NCBI GenBank assembly: GCA_016788585.1
Contig: JAEURP010000001.1
Location: forward strand, 124,001-188,000
Source: Chthonomonas sp.
GTDB lineage: Bacteria > Armatimonadota > Fimbriimonadia > Fimbriimonadales > Fimbriimonadaceae
Length of the DNA: 64,000 bases
Direction: 5' to 3'
Position 1 is the stretch's first letter. Every line of letters starts with the position of its first letter. The position numbers were made by a program, and so were the translations under genes. A model generated the notes under the pieces. The model searched no databases, was not told where the DNA came from, and saw only the letters and a list, made by a program, of their open reading frames with translations. Below are positions 58,067 to 64,000 of the stretch, piece after piece.

Positions 58067-59242
58067 TTACCCTTGAGATTCAAGCAATTCCTTCTTCCCA
58101 TTGTTTTTCGGGAGGGCCAGGATAGCCACGGTCGCCAGTAGGATGCCAGAAATAAGGAAGTGTGCTTTCGGCATGACGAGTGGCGTAGCTCCAATTACGA
58201 ATGCCAAGCAAACGGGCACGAAGCAGCGTCTCTCCCCCATCTCAAACCGATCGCGCACCAGCCAGGTCGATAAGATAAATAGAGCCACCGGAATCGAGAC
58301 CGACAGCTCTGCCGTAAACAAATCTACGTGAGCATCTCCGCCCAGCGTCTCGCGCAAAACCGCGAATCCAACTCCCGTGCAAGCAGCTGAAGCAAACACA
58401 AAGAAGTGCCCATAACCCCATTGGAGCGCCCTGCGAAGGTGCCCCTCCGGCAGGTGCGTTCCCCAATGAAAGTAATAGCCGTACATGCAAAACGTGATGA
58501 CCGCGCAGCTCACGGCATGCAGCATCGCCTCTGGCGTCGGGCTGAGCTGCTCCGCGGTCTGCCGCAAAAACCCAACTATGGAGAGGAAGCATTCGCCTAG
58601 AACGATAATCGTGACCAAGCCGTACCGCTCAATGATATGGCCCCTATGCCAGCCCGTCCCTTCGCCGCGAAACTCGGCAAGCACCGGCACACTGAGTTCT
58701 CCAATAACTCCCGCGATGAAAAGCCAAATGTAGTAGGGTGCCGATACTGGAGTCAACAGCACCGCCGCGATCCAAAAGGCCTGCATGGCAAGAATTCCCC
58801 ACCCGTAGGTATGCGATGAGAACCTCTGAGCTGCGTTCTCATGGGGTGCCCAGAACCACAAAGCTGCCATCGCAGCCCGCATGATCACGAAGCCGATCAA
58901 GCAAGTGTAAATGGGCTGCCCGGCATAAACCGCCGGAATTCCCGCGGCAATGGTCAGCGCCCCGAACAGCGCGATCAACGTCATCACTCGAAAGAACGCC
59001 GATCGGTCGTCAAACGATGAAGCGAACCAGGTGTAGTTCATCCACGACCACCAGATCATGAAGAACGCCATGATGAAGCTGATCAGGCCCTGGACAATGT
59101 GTCCTTCGGCGAGGCCGTGATGAAACCCTGCCGCCGCCGTGGCGATCGCGATAACCGTCGCAAGGTCAAAGAGCAACTCCAAGGGGGTAGCAGCCCGGTG
59201 CTCCCCATGAGCAAGCTTCTGATGAGGCCGAAATAGGCGCAT
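58067..59242 (-). CDS. ltrA: Low temperature requirement A (LtrA) family membrane protein
   Basis: A 391-residue protein with about ten membrane helices. ATPLELLFDLATVIAIATAA near the N-terminus, IIERYGLVTIIVLGECFLSI in the middle and HWGTHLPEG are the LtrA signatures. Its function is unknown in general. TAAACT ends nine bases before the ATG. It is the last gene before the tRNA-Arg scar. Confidence 0.92.
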   Translation of the reverse strand: MRLFRPHQKLAHGEHRAATPLELLFDLATVIAIATAAAGFHHGLAEGHIVQGLISFIMAFFMIWWSWMNYTWFASSFDDRSAFFRVMTLIALFGALTIAAGIPAVYAGQPIYTCLIGFVIMRAAMAALWFWAPHENAAQRFSSHTYGWGILAMQAFWIAAVLLTPVSAPYYIWLFIAGVIGELSVPVLAEFRGEGTGWHRGHIIERYGLVTIIVLGECFLSIVGFLRQTAEQLSPTPEAMLHAVSCAVITFCMYGYYFHWGTHLPEGHLRRALQWGYGHFFVFASAACTGVGFAVLRETLGGDAHVDLFTAELSVSIPVALFILSTWLVRDRFEMGERRCFVPVCLAFVIGATPLVMPKAHFLISGILLATVAILALPKNNGKKELLESQG

Positions 59243-59584: not shown

Positions 59585-59628
59585 TGGCGGCCCCGGAGGG
59601 AATCGAACCCCCAACACCCTCCTTAGGA
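59585..59628 (-). other. Orphan 3' half of tRNA-Arg(CCU), probable attachment-site scar
   Basis: On the minus strand the segment folds as the 3' half of a tRNA: an anticodon loop with T33 and anticodon CCT followed by AA, anticodon stem 3' strand GGAGG, variable GTGTT, T stem GGGGG, loop TTCGATT, CCCTC, acceptor 3' strand CGGGGCC, discriminator G and an encoded CCA at 59587-59585. The bases to its right do not complete the anticodon stem (TGTCA instead of CCTCC), and no acceptor 5' strand GGCCCCG was found nearby. The break at the anticodon loop is typical of tRNA 3' ends duplicated by tyrosine-recombinase integration. Confidence 0.75.
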
Positions 59629-59641
59629 CTGACATTTTTAG

Positions 59642-59676
59642 GTTCAACGAGCCCGAGCGGTTGTCCGCCGTTGAAC
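59642..59676. repeat. Bulged inverted repeat beside the tRNA-Arg scar
   Basis: GTTCAACG (59642-59649) pairs with CGTTGAAC (59669-59676). Inside, GCGG (59657-59660) pairs with CCGC (59665-59668) around TTGT. One strand is continuous and the other carries a seven-base bulge. The position just inside the predicted element end fits an integrase or accessory-protein arm site or a structured RNA. Confidence 0.5.
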
Positions 59677-59762
59677 GTAAATGATTGCTGAATTCCACTG
59701 CGTTAGAGAGACCTTTGAGAGACGTTCATGAGGATTGGCCTTGTTTGGGCAGCAAGGCATGC

Positions 59763-59768
59763 CAGAAT
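59763..59768 (+). promoter_or_regulatory. -10-like element of the Crp-family gene
   Basis: CAGAAT ends six bases before the ATG at 59775, the same spacing as other first genes in the window. No strong ribosome site is present (GAAGCG). Confidence 0.35.
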
Positions 59769-59774
59769 GAAGCG

Positions 59775-60476
59775 ATGTCCGATCAATCCGAAGCACCGTC
59801 GCGCCGGGAGGTGCTCGCGGGCAGCACGTTGCTTGGCAGTTTGAGCGACGATCAGGTGGGCGAACTGGTCGTCAATTCTCGCATGGCCCATGCTGAAAAG
59901 GGAGAGACCATTTGGCTGAACGGCAGTAGCGTTTCTTTTTTTGGCGTGGTGGGTACGGGTTTTGTTAAGATGACCACGGTAGGGCCAAGTCATCAAGAGA
60001 TCACGACTGAAATCATGGGTCCCGGACACGTTTTCGGTCTGCTCGGAGTAATTGACGGCACAGGGTGCCCGCAGACTGCCAAAGCAATCACCGGCACCTG
60101 GTATCTCAAGGTGCCTAAAGCAGGCATTTTGCCCTTTTACGAGCAGAACGTGGTGCTCAAGGAGCAGTTGTTCAAGCGAACGACTCATCGCCTAAGGCAG
60201 GCCTTTGATCTGATCGCTCATTTATCCGTGGGAACGGTTGAGCAACGCGTTGCCGCTGTGCTTCTTGTTCTGACTCGCTCCTTTGGTCGGGACTGCCCGG
60301 ATGGAATCCTTTTGGATGTACCTCTCACCAGGCAAGAGATCGCTGAACTTGCTGGGACGACCGTGGAGTCCACCATCCGCATTATGAGTCGCTGGCAGAA
60401 GCAAGAGTGGATTGAAACTCAGGCACGGCACATTCTTGTGAAGGACCTTGATCGACTTCTTGAGGCCGTCCGGTAG
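59775..60476 (+). CDS. Crp/FNR family transcriptional regulator
   Basis: A 233-residue regulator: cyclic-nucleotide-binding-like beta roll (about 15-130, EKGETIWLNGSSVSFFGVV, MGPGHVFGLLGVI), a dimer helix, then a winged helix (PLTRQEIAELAGTTVESTIR). The recognition helix keeps the Glu and Arg that contact TGA half-sites in FNR-type proteins. The N-terminal Cys set that binds 4Fe-4S in FNR is absent, with only one Cys in GTGCPQT, so a Dnr/haem-NO or other ligand mode is possible. It probably controls the operon that begins 78 bases later. Confidence 0.88.
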   Translation: MSDQSEAPSRREVLAGSTLLGSLSDDQVGELVVNSRMAHAEKGETIWLNGSSVSFFGVVGTGFVKMTTVGPSHQEITTEIMGPGHVFGLLGVIDGTGCPQTAKAITGTWYLKVPKAGILPFYEQNVVLKEQLFKRTTHRLRQAFDLIAHLSVGTVEQRVAAVLLVLTRSFGRDCPDGILLDVPLTRQEIAELAGTTVESTIRIMSRWQKQEWIETQARHILVKDLDRLLEAVR

Positions 60477-60505
60477 GCTCAAATCATCCCGGGTGGACAC
60501 GAACT

Positions 60506-60519
60506 ATGACGAATATCAT
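60506..60519 (+). promoter_or_regulatory. FNR/Dnr-type operator upstream of the ferredoxin-Rieske operon
   Basis: ATGAC-GAAT-ATCAT matches the xTGAy-N4-rTCAx pattern of FNR/Dnr boxes; its half-sites are ATGAC and, on the other strand, ATGAT. It lies between the Crp-family gene and the 4Fe-4S gene. Its centre is 42.5 bases before the GTG at 60555, the class II activation distance if transcription starts at that codon. Confidence 0.6.
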
Positions 60520-60554
60520 GGTTCATGTTTGCCAGACGTGCAACCATTGTCGTT

Positions 60555-61160
60555 GTGAGTGAGCGGCAGTTCTACATAGACCCCAGTCGGTGCATTGGCT
60601 GCAACGCGTGTGTCCAGGCGTGCGCGGAGTGTGACACTCACCCGGGAGTTTCGATGATTCACTTGGAACAAGTCCAGCGAGCCGACTCTGTTCAGACAAC
60701 CCCGATAATCTGTATGCACTGTGACGAACCCGCCTGCGCGATGGTTTGCCCGGCGGATGCAATCAAAAAGACCCCAGATGGAGCGGTTCAAAGTTCGCTG
60801 AAGCCACGCTGCATAGGATGCACTAACTGCCTCTTCGCTTGTCCGTTCGGAGTGCCCAAGTACGACGTTGAAGTAGATCAGATGATGAAATGCGACATGT
60901 GCTACGAGCGCACTTCAATAGGCCTCAAACCAATGTGCGCTACCGTGTGCCCATCCGGTGCACTATTCTACGGGACGCCTGAAGAACTCGCCGCTCAACG
61001 GTCGGGAACGCCGATTAACGAGTTTGTTTTTGGAAAAAAGACTATCACCACCAAGGTCCACCTGATGATGCCTCAAGGGTCAAAACGTCTTGACGTCAAG
61101 CCTGATACCGTAGTTCGCCGATCTGACTTACTCACCGCAGTGAGGCAAGTGGAGCACTGA
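60555..61160 (+). CDS. 4Fe-4S dicluster electron-transfer protein
   Basis: A 201-residue ferredoxin-type subunit like DmsB, NrfC and PsrB. Cysteine clusters: [39 protein letters not shown] and [11 protein letters not shown] with CATVCPSG, enough for about four [4Fe-4S] centres. No export signal, so it may sit in the cytoplasm or be carried with a partner. GTG at 60555 ([10 protein letters not shown]) was chosen because the operator at 60506-60519 would otherwise lie only five bases before the ATG at 60525. It would relay electrons between the Rieske protein and a catalytic subunit. Confidence 0.85.
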
Positions 61161-61166
61161 TTAAGC

Positions 61167-61664
61167 ATGAACGACAAGCTGAGAGAAGATTTTCCGATTG
61201 AGTGGGAAGACGACCACTTTGTAACTCGCCGTGAGTTCTTCAAGTTCCTCACGTTGGCCAGTGGTGGCATCGCGGTAGGTACGGCGGCACTAGCGGCTTA
61301 CGCCCAAATTCCGAAAGATGAGATCAAGTTTGAAGTCGCAAAGATTTGCTCGACCGAAGATTTAAAACCGGGTTCCGCACTTGCTTTTAGCTATCCTCGC
61401 CCAGCTGATTTATGTATTCTCGTTCGGAAGCAGGACGGCGAGTTCGTCGCCTTCAAACGGCGGTGCACTCACCTTTCATGCCCCGTAGAGTACGAAGTCA
61501 AAAACGAGCGCGAGCTCCTCTATTGCCCTTGCCACAACGGTGCCTTTTCTCTTGAAGACGGCAGCGTGATTCAAGGACCGCCTCCTCATCCTCTACCGCA
61601 AGTGAAAATTGAAATTCGCAACAGTGAAATATGGGCTACGGGCGCGATCAAGGGTGACCACTGA
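61167..61664 (+). CDS. Rieske [2Fe-2S] protein with Tat signal
   Basis: A 165-residue Rieske protein. Residues about 20-45 (TRREFFKFLTLASGG, then a hydrophobic stretch) form a twin-arginine signal or membrane anchor. Cluster ligands are CTHLSCPV (Cys, His) and YCPCHNGAF (Cys, His). It is more like arsenite-oxidase or nitrite-reductase-type small Rieskes than a bc1 subunit, as no cytochrome b is near. It follows the 4Fe-4S gene by six bases and overlaps the small membrane gene by one base (TGATG). Confidence 0.9.
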   Translation: MNDKLREDFPIEWEDDHFVTRREFFKFLTLASGGIAVGTAALAAYAQIPKDEIKFEVAKICSTEDLKPGSALAFSYPRPADLCILVRKQDGEFVAFKRRCTHLSCPVEYEVKNERELLYCPCHNGAFSLEDGSVIQGPPPHPLPQVKIEIRNSEIWATGAIKGDH

Positions 61665-61897
61665 TGACCACGCCAGAATTCCATCGCCGTCGCCAAAAGG
61701 CGGTTGTTTTAGTCGGGTTCTTGCTGTTTGCGCTGATCCTGTTTCTCATCCAGCTGTGGCTGTTTGTGATGGTGCTCGAGAACACCCTGGCGGGAAATAC
61801 GGATATGGTTATTCAAGCATCTGCGTTTAGCTTCTTACTGTTGGGCACTAATATCTGGATGCTCGCAGGAGTGAAGCGGCTGATGAAGATGCAGTAA
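61664..61897 (+). CDS. Small two-helix membrane protein of the Rieske operon
   Basis: A 77-residue protein with basic N-terminus and two hydrophobic helices (about 14-38 and 48-68). I recognise no sure family. Its start shares one base with the Rieske stop, so it is made in step with it. It may anchor the Rieske/ferredoxin pair to the membrane. A T-run (61911-61918) follows the stop after a weak AGAA/TTCT stem. Confidence 0.7.
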   Translation: MTTPEFHRRRQKAVVLVGFLLFALILFLIQLWLFVMVLENTLAGNTDMVIQASAFSFLLLGTNIWMLAGVKRLMKMQ

Positions 61898-62018
61898 GTG
61901 ATAGAAAACGATTCTTTTTTGGGCGAGAAGTAGAGAAAGTCTAATCTCAACTCATCTCGATTGGTGATTTACTGTTACCTCAGCAGTGCACTCTATTGAA
62001 TTGCTTGAACTGGATCGG

Positions 62019-62495
62019 CTAGTTTGCCCATTCAGCCTGTTCCCGTGGACAAGATTCCTTTGCTGGTTCTGAATCCAAAAACGCGAGGGCGGTTAGGAGC
62101 AACACAAGGACGGCCGAAGTGACGATGTATTGATAGTGTAGGTTTGACTCTCTCACGACTTCTCCCGATAGCCTTTGTAACATTCGGTCGTGAAGAGCCG
62201 GTTGAACTAAGAGGCTTTTTGTGAGATAACAACTGAGAGTAATCAAGGCGAGAACTTTATGCCAGCGTCCTCCGAATAAGGACAGCAATACGGTCACTGG
62301 AACTAGGACTGATTCGGCCAAATGCAATGCACCGAACTGAACACGGCCAACATCAAGTAGCTCAAACGTGGAAGGCTTTTGAGCGGTGAACTTGACGGCG
62401 GCCCCGACATGACCGAGGCCAACGATTAGCCCGGCACAGATTCCGGCGAGGCCCTGACCGATGCGAAACAGTCTTCGTTTTCGGCGCTCACTCAC
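62019..62495 (-). CDS. Four-helix membrane protein of unknown function
   Basis: A 158-residue protein with a basic N-terminus and four hydrophobic segments (GLAGICAGLIVGLGHVGAAV, LAESVLVPVTVLLSLFGG, VLALITLSCYLT and IVTSAVLVLLLTALAFL). Two conserved-looking His/Glu stretches (FGALHLAESVLV) could bind a quinone or haem, but this is speculation. It lies six bases downstream of the molybdoenzyme gene on the same strand and so is likely co-transcribed with it. The 61898-62018 gap holds nothing else recognisable. Confidence 0.65.
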   Translation of the reverse strand: MSERRKRRLFRIGQGLAGICAGLIVGLGHVGAAVKFTAQKPSTFELLDVGRVQFGALHLAESVLVPVTVLLSLFGGRWHKVLALITLSCYLTKSLLVQPALHDRMLQRLSGEVVRESNLHYQYIVTSAVLVLLLTALAFLDSEPAKESCPREQAEWAN

Positions 62496-62501
62496 TGATA
62501 G

Positions 62502-64000
62502 TTAGGGAGCCTCTGACCTCTCGATTTTCACGCAAGCCCGCTTGTATTCGGGAATGCCGCTTACCGGATCGTAAGAGCGGACTGTGAGGTTGTTCGCCGC
62601 CTTGCGCCCAGGCCAGTGGTACGGAATGAAGACGGTATCGGGGCGAATCGTGGAGACCACTTTGGCCTGTAGGACGACTTCGCCGCGGCGACTAGTGACG
62701 CGCATCCAGTCCTTGTCAGCGATGCCATATTGTGCGGCCAAGGTTGGGTGTATCTCGACATAGGGATCGGAACAGAGGTCGACCAGCCCTCCGATCCGGC
62801 GAGTCTGCGTTCCGCTCAGATAGTGCGACACCACCCGCCCGGTCGTCAGAACCACCGGATATTCTTCGTCCGGCTCTTCCAGCGGCGGCCGGTACTTCAC
62901 GGCATTGAAGTGCGCTTTGCCGTCTGGGGTCTTGAACTTTAGGTCCTCCCAAAGGCGCGGTGTGCCTGGGTGACCAATTTCAGGGCAGGGCCAAAAAACG
63001 CCGAGTTCTTTCTCGATGCGCTCATAGGTGATTCCGTAGTAGTCCGCAGTTCCGCCCTTGCTCGCCACTCGTAGCTCGTTAAAGATGTCCTCGGCAGATT
63101 TAAAGTGGTCAAAGAATTTCCCTCGCCCAAGTCGGCGGGCGAGTTCCAAGATGATATCGGTATCGGCCTTGGCGTTCCCCGGAGGATTGACCGCCTTTTG
63201 GATCCTGATCACCCGTCCCTCGGCGCTTGTGCTGGTTCCTTCTTCCTCTTCGTGGAGCGAACCGGCCATCACGATATCGGCATGGTGCGCAGTTTCATTC
63301 AAGAAGAAATCGATGGCCGTGTAGTGCTCCAGTTTGTTGAGAGCCTCGCGGGTGAAGTTGGAATCCGGGAGCGACACGAGCGGGTTGAAGCAAATGGAAA
63401 TTAGGGCTTTGATTCCTCCAGCGTGGATCATCTCCATGATCTCGGGAGCTGTGTGGCCCTTGCCGGGGAGTTCTTCATCGGTGCAACCCCAGGCTGAACA
63501 GATGTACGCCCGATGATCCGGATTAGAGATATCCCGATTGCCTGGGAGCTGGTCGCACTTGTGCCCGTGCTCTCGTCCCCCTTGACCATTGCCTTGGCCT
63601 GTGATGGTTCCGTATCCACAGCCTTTGCGCCCGATCCGTCCGGTGGCTAGAACGAGGTTGATGCAGCTGACCACATTGTCTACGCCCTTAGAGCTGTGCT
63701 CAATACCCCTTGCGTGCATTAGGAAACTGGTTTTCGCTTCGCCCCACATCCGTCCAGCGCGAATGATATCTTCGACCTTGATGCCGCTGATGCGACTTGC
63801 TTCTTCTAGCGGTAGGGCTAGGGCCGCCGCCTTCGTTTCTTCCCATCCCGAGGTGTATTCAGCAATAAACTCTTCGTTGGCGAGTCCCTCTTCGATCAGT
63901 ACGCGGAGGATGCCAAGCAAGAGTGCCGAGTCCGTGCCAGGAAGGACGGGAAGGTGAAGATCGCACGTGCGCGCGATAGGCGTCACGCGGGGATCGATCA
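62502..64000 (-). CDS. Molybdopterin oxidoreductase, nitrate reductase NasA/NarB-like, C-terminal part
   Basis: The C-terminal about 498 residues of a molybdopterin-guanine-dinucleotide enzyme. The frame continues to the right edge (DPRVTPIARTCDLHLPVLPG), so the start is outside the window. GQGNGQGGREHGHKCDQLPG, ICFNPLVSLPDSNFTREAL, AGSLHEEEEGTSTSAEGRVI and VLTTGRVVSHYLSGTQTRR are the cofactor-binding blocks of the NasA/NarB/formate-dehydrogenase group. The GNGQGG block and loop around SLPDSNFTR point to assimilatory-type nitrate reductase, but formate dehydrogenase cannot be excluded without the N-terminal Fe-S and metal-ligand region. Confidence 0.88.
   Translation of the reverse strand, partial: IDPRVTPIARTCDLHLPVLPGTDSALLLGILRVLIEEGLANEEFIAEYTSGWEETKAAALALPLEEASRISGIKVEDIIRAGRMWGEAKTSFLMHARGIEHSSKGVDNVVSCINLVLATGRIGRKGCGYGTITGQGNGQGGREHGHKCDQLPGNRDISNPDHRAYICSAWGCTDEELPGKGHTAPEIMEMIHAGGIKALISICFNPLVSLPDSNFTREALNKLEHYTAIDFFLNETAHHADIVMAGSLHEEEEGTSTSAEGRVIRIQKAVNPPGNAKADTDIILELARRLGRGKFFDHFKSAEDIFNELRVASKGGTADYYGITYERIEKELGVFWPCPEIGHPGTPRLWEDLKFKTPDGKAHFNAVKYRPPLEEPDEEYPVVLTTGRVVSHYLSGTQTRRIGGLVDLCSDPYVEIHPTLAAQYGIADKDWMRVTSRRGEVVLQAKVVSTIRPDTVFIPYHWPGRKAANNLTVRSYDPVSGIPEYKRACVKIERSEAP

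Follow-up and report, generated by a model that had tools for sequence, protein, structure and literature searches.

In integrons, the integrase lies next to a primary site, and the cargo units lined up there have no integrase of their own and occur in differing order. Tandem islands at RNA genes, including integrase-less ones, CIMEs and additive islands with tRNA repeats are also known already (PMC3146451, PMC5704250, PMC10872708). Among the ssrA-specific islands of Dehalococcoides, which include vcr-GI, some contain no integration module and were proposed to be mobilised in cis (PMC3146451).

Here, we analysed a window of 64,000 nucleotides, i.e. the whole stretch C27:124001-188000 of a Fimbriimonadaceae genome of 2.38 Mb in 27 contigs; window coordinates are C27 coordinates minus 124000. 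The window contains the left 4.4 kb of an 18.1-kb nitrate-reduction unit at tRNA-Arg(CCU). With a probability of roughly 0.85, this unit is a genomic island without an integrase that is mobilised in cis or in trans and belongs to a tandem-accretion locus of the Fimbriimonadaceae. In the open-licence literature, searches on mobile elements of Fimbriimonadales gave no published account of this locus, nor did we find one of such islands in Armatimonadota.

Boundaries of the unit at tRNA-Arg(CCU)

An orphan 3' part of tRNA-Arg(CCU), comprising nucleotides 32-76, is located on the minus strand at 59585..59629 (GTCCTAAGGAGGGTGTTGGGGGTTCGATTCCCTCCGGGGCCGCCA) and extends from the start of the anticodon loop to the CCA. 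We regard it as the scar of an attachment site, with the chromosome on its left and the element on its right. An earlier note on this DNA had recognised the fragment one nucleotide short, at 59585-59628, and had reported that the 5' half is absent nearby; ARAGORN detected no intact tRNA in the 64-kb window. The scar is identical to the intact tRNA-Arg(CCU) of the genome at 43 of 45 positions, the two substitutions being transitions. A search of the genome with the scar gave strong matches only at the scar itself, at the right end of C27 and on contig C10. As the latter two copies match the scar with an E-value of 7.7e-15 (94% identity over 48 nt), a chance match is excluded. An Rfam scan of the scar returned a chance-level match over the T-arm only, as would be anticipated when half of the tRNA is missing.

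The intact tRNA-Arg(CCT) is located on C10, 18.1 kb to the right of the scar and in direct orientation, with the boundary at C27:201695. One unit thus comprises 18,110 bp (C27:183585-201694). The resulting order of chromosome, scar, element, intact tRNA and chromosome matches the expectation for integration at a tRNA 3' end. The earlier note had placed the element to the right of the minus-strand scar and had predicted an intact tRNA-Arg(CCU) beyond position 64000 rather than only to the left. The copy that closes the right side, whose last 45 nt are those compared with the scar above, agrees with both statements.

C27 ends at 201743, within the second tRNA copy, and its terminal 141 bases match the start of the reverse-complemented C10 exactly. 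Since the contig breaks at this copy, the join of C27 and C10 rests on the 141-nt overlap together with synteny. An exact overlap of this length is presumably typical de Bruijn assembler output at a branching node. The break may stem from a co-occurring genome in which the neighbour is a different one, as the contig stops at fragment position 49, near position 46, where the junctions of relatives leave the intact tRNA. A circular form of the 18.1-kb unit is not supported as the cause, because its branch would be due by fragment position 46, whereas the contig stops at 49.

To the left of the scar, an LtrA-family gene is encoded on the minus strand (58067..59242; Pfam LtrA 1.5e-69), which is syntenic with tRNA-Arg(CCU) in G004, a genome of the same genus. 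There, the left-flank genes including LtrA (69% amino acid identity) and the tRNA together with its TolB-like neighbour gene occur on one contig in the same order. Neither the nitrate island nor the scar is present between LtrA and tRNA-Arg(CCU) in G004, so the gene order on the right is not one that all relatives keep without the scar. The relative lacking the DNA from 59630 onward that the earlier note had proposed for comparison was found only in part: the flanks are colinear, but 6.1 kb of RND/metal-related (metal-efflux) genes intervene. The comparison supports an insertion, although the site is not clean or base-exact. LtrA was rejected as a family-wide marker of empty sites, as close homologues occur only in G001 and G004 and the one in G001 is on another contig.

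Both ends of the unit carry conserved motifs. The left end shows an inverted repeat, TAGGTTCAACG...CGTTGAACGTA (59639..59679, plus strand), which is kept in the type-A junctions of relatives, followed by two GAGAGAC direct repeats (59706..59723, plus strand), a pair that recurs at the left ends of nearly all units. Following the fragment, type-A left ends read TGACATTT..TAGGTTCAACG..CGTTGAACCTA, while a second type starts with TGAA. At most right ends of units and integrase islands, the motif TAGGTTCAAA (8-10 of 10 positions) is found 1-4 nt before the core, which is tRNA-derived at the junctions. Chromosome sides score 4-7, with one 8 in G102, and the background frequency of scores of at least 8 in 22 nt is 0.4%. 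The right end of the unit studied here scores 8 of 10; the motif is absent at the right ends of the cop unit, the G002 defence unit and the G105 unit. These end motifs resemble the arm sites of recombinases, for which the inverted repeat is a candidate, and the TAGGTTCAA sites are candidate integrase-binding sites.

Gene content and transfer of the nitrate-reduction unit

The part of the unit within the window (59630..64000, continuing outside to C27:201694) begins with three genes on the plus strand. These encode a Crp/Fnr-type regulator (59775..60476; Pfam HTH_Crp_2 8.5e-18, cNMP_binding 1.1e-11), a DmsB/NrfC-like 4Fe-4S ferredoxin-type electron-transfer protein (60525..61160; Fer4_11 2.3e-20) and a Rieske [2Fe-2S] protein (61167..61664; Rieske 1.4e-14). 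On the minus strand follow a small membrane protein without Pfam match (62019..62495), replaced by a different gene at the same spot in related units, and a molybdopterin oxidoreductase of 726 amino acids (62502..64000, on to C27:188682; Molybdopterin 6.6e-60). The latter is a NasC-like catalytic subunit of nitrate reductase; NasC is its best NCBIfam model, with 804 bits, below the cut-off of 1100. The Crp-Rieske-molybdoenzyme genes are therefore located inside the element, as anticipated in the earlier note. Further to the right, the unit encodes a TauE-like permease, a MoaE-ThiF/MoeB fusion, MoeA, a MoaC-Mog fusion, MoaA and two NarK-type transporters. Next are a glyoxalase-like protein, a 457-aa membrane protein without family match, a second Crp/Fnr regulator, a MobA-like protein, a carboxymuconolactone-decarboxylase-like protein and a membrane protein with a weak NarI-like match. 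This gene content makes it likely that the unit serves to convert nitrate to nitrite and has its own cofactor supply.

The integrase that had been considered possible beyond position 64000 is not part of the element: C27 and C10 have no PF00589 match, the genome's six being distributed over C4 (two), C18, C23, C6 and C12. No relaxase, conjugation or other transfer genes were detected among the annotated open reading frames of the unit and no viral structural or packaging genes by Pfam. The junction pattern had no match in IMG/VR, and a megablast search of the 18-kb unit against plasmids gave none either. The GC content of the unit (55.1%) equals that of its flanks (55.3%), for which reason composition-based island finders would miss it.

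The tRNA-bounded interval itself is the shared unit. Homology by blastn to G002 (same genus) and G033 (another genus) extends from C27:183584/5 to 201742, i.e. from fragment to fragment. Homology to G029 (another genus) runs from 183584 to 201771, through the intact tRNA-Arg(CCU), as in the genome studied here. In G009, the shared unit likewise begins at the scar. Gaps inside this homology are located at 185.9-186.5 and 195.7-196.2 kb, the first being the spot of the small membrane protein. The units of relatives are about 83% identical to ours at the DNA level, and the nitrate reductase is 96-97% identical in amino acids across genera. In comparison, rpoB of the four relatives shows 73-76% nucleotide identity to ours and its protein 77% (G009) and 73% (G033), the frames of G002 and G029 being incomplete. 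This discrepancy between nitrate reductase and RpoB (96-97% versus 73-77%) makes horizontal transfer of the nitrate unit between genera well supported. Between G002 and G033, the cus unit is 98.3% and the cop unit 97.5% identical in nucleotides, compared with 73.5% for rpoB. G001 and G004, both of the same genus, possess an enzyme only 80% identical to the nitrate reductase, on other contigs.

The nitrate unit of G002 contains about 6 kb of extra genes (G002:C2:786712-792900), which on visual inspection form a second respiratory module that includes another molybdoenzyme. A typical Fimbriimonadaceae junction (L097:2828-2857) was found on a 7.9-kb contig binned as Cryobacterium (JAHBSS010000065.1); misbinning is the likely cause, and wider transfer is a possible source.

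Rows of units and the linked integrase in relatives

A junction profile search revealed chains in which 48-nt tRNA fragments separate as many as five units, for nitrate, copper, RND efflux or defence, whose order varies between genomes; the names of the metal units (cus, cop, RND) were assigned from a reading of the translations. Counted from the intact tRNA outward, the genome studied here contains the nitrate unit, and G029 contains nitrate, RND efflux (cus) and copper (cop), the cop unit being assigned to the row by an inferred link between two contigs. The row in G002 is defence, cop, cus and nitrate, whereas G033 has an integrase-defence island, cop, cus, nitrate and a second RND unit. 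In G102, an integrase island is followed by cop, nitrate and cus, and in G103 by cop+cus and nitrate. G102 is 88-89% identical to G033 in the nitrate and cus units, while its cop unit shows 68.5% identity to that of G033 and 90.5% to that of G103. These discordant values favour separate histories of the units, although recombination within rows could also produce them. G002 and G033 share a nitrate-cus-cop block in one order (95.8% identity over 30 kb), which fits a transfer of the whole block.

Two further arrangements were observed. In G102, the integrase island and the cop unit flank a second, divergent complete tRNA-Arg(CCT) (G102:C1:1679958-1680033; L145:14958-15033), whose distance to the main tRNA-Arg(CCT) is about 31.6 kb. 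G105 has other cargo at the same tRNA, placed between a tRNA fragment and the intact tRNA, which judged from translations is apparently a Kdp-type potassium uptake set (G105:C1:980623-988756, L149).

A clade of tyrosine integrases is linked to this tRNA. The ten best relatives of the G033 integrase among 85 family genomes (65-100% identical) all lie 95-111 nt from the 3' end of tRNA-Arg(CCU), as calculated from coordinates. They occur in G033, G009, G011, G104, G108, G097, G006, G103, G102 and G005, and the next integrase group is at most 55% identical. The adjacent tRNA is intact or near full length in all seven genomes checked (G033, G009, G006, G011, G102, G103, G104). Three of the ten open frames contain one internal stop, at the edge of the match or inside it. 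In G033, the integrase beside the tRNA has a Phage_integrase domain, and its island also encodes a large serine recombinase, a TrwB-like ATPase, Replic_Relax, an ArdC-like protein and a type I restriction gene. Integrase islands occur in tandem in G033, G009, G011, G102 and G103. Phage records contain distant relatives of this integrase, at most about 27% identical among the matches listed.

The genome studied here has no integrase of the tRNA-Arg clade. Its nearest homologue is 49% identical and adjoins tRNA-Val(GAC) (G000:C6:8132-9778, L133), from which it follows that related integrases may use different tRNA targets. Because of this distance and neighbourhood, it was judged unlikely to be the enzyme acting at the tRNA-Arg site. 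In G001, three related integrase genes are spaced about 11.4 kb apart (G001:C10:3165-26938), which suggests another tandem row.

Origin of the unit and comparison with known systems

We propose that site-specific integration of the 18.1-kb nitrate unit displaced the host 3' end of tRNA-Arg(CCU), which is now the orphan, and that the unit's own copy of the 3' part now completes the working gene on the right. The most likely crossover point is the anticodon loop or its immediate vicinity, which is where identity between the two copies begins. Integration was most probably carried out by a tyrosine integrase of the tRNA-linked clade, acting either in cis, with the unit accreted to a helper island, or in trans. 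Excision, a circular intermediate, transfer and a route between cells would be presumed steps of the same process.

Decay is the strongest competing explanation, albeit a rather doubtful one. As in a classical CIME, an integrative element would have lost its integrase and transfer genes after insertion and would now be a fixed remnant, movable only with a helper. Such a history would explain a unit without recombinase, the two substitutions in its scar and the right-end motif of 8 of 10, as in ageing ends, and it is the usual account of CIMEs (PMC5704250). However, several genera share this integrase-less unit, with the same boundaries in each. Decay is unlikely to have arrived independently at one form, so the form lacking an integrase seems itself to have been mobile, either by itself or as part of a block. 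It is improbable that, once larger DNA pieces had been transferred, homologous recombination at tRNA fragments or at flanking units in common was instead responsible for the recent moves, a process that needs no site-specific integrase. The nitrate-cus-cop block of G002 and G033 is compatible with it, but fragments of 48 nt are short for this process, the nitrate unit is directly at the tRNA in G029 and in the genome studied here, the end motifs are conserved and the integrase clade is linked to the site. A chimeric join by assembly or binning as the source of the tRNA fragment, to which the 27 contigs and the break at the second copy might point, is very improbable and already contradicted by independent genomes, as other assemblies, including G029 and the single-contig G102, show the same anatomy and the tRNA-TolB neighbourhood is kept in G001, G004 and G029.

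With an integrase-less island in a tandem-accretion locus as the preferred reading, the pathway for nitrate reduction, together with synthesis of its cofactor, appears to pass from genus to genus within Armatimonadota as a single tRNA-bounded unit. Entire metabolic abilities seem to be exchanged in this form, as closely related blocks are located at the same tRNA in other bacterial genera, often lined up with metal-resistance blocks. The conserved ends, the differing order and the linked integrase turn cargo movement without an own recombinase into a directly testable question. More tentatively, it may be speculated that a family-wide exchange exists in Fimbriimonadaceae, in which the tRNA-Arg(CCU) tyrosine integrase moves integrase-less cargo cassettes with conserved ends in trans and stacks them in variable order. 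If so, the system would work like an integron with operon-sized cassettes (nitrate, copper, RND efflux) and tRNA fragments as sites. Compared with integrons, the sites here are tRNA fragments, the units are multi-gene stretches of 1.5-24 kb and the integrase matches the phage-integrase family.

Like a tRNA-targeted island, the unit has a tRNA with a direct repeat and is absent from a relative (G004, with other genes at the site), although it has no integrase of its own. It resembles tycheposons and additive flexible islands in its tRNA-bounded cargo, with nitrogen metabolism among the functions, and in the tRNA 3'-end repeats between cassettes, but tycheposons carry a tyrosine recombinase (PMC10872708) and the nitrate unit has none. 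The absence of relaxase and conjugation genes among its annotated open reading frames separates it from ICEs and IMEs. The ssrA islands of Dehalococcoides are similar in their tandem position at the 3' end of an RNA gene, with direct repeats of that end between them, and in their respiratory cargo; they differ in their tmRNA target, 20-bp repeats and the serine recombinase DsiB (PMC3146451), compared with tRNA-Arg(CCU), a repeat of 45-48 nt, a linked tyrosine integrase and nitrate-reduction and metal-resistance cargo here. The unit fits the definition of a CIME in keeping attL/attR-like ends while integrase and, among the annotated open reading frames, transfer genes are absent, and like CIMEs and accreted elements related to ICEs and IMEs it is found att-flanked beside helper-like islands in tandem (PMC5704250). 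CIMEs are described as decayed (PMC5704250), whereas the same integrase-less units recur here with fixed limits and in differing order in several genera, and this recurrence is the departure from the decayed-CIME account.
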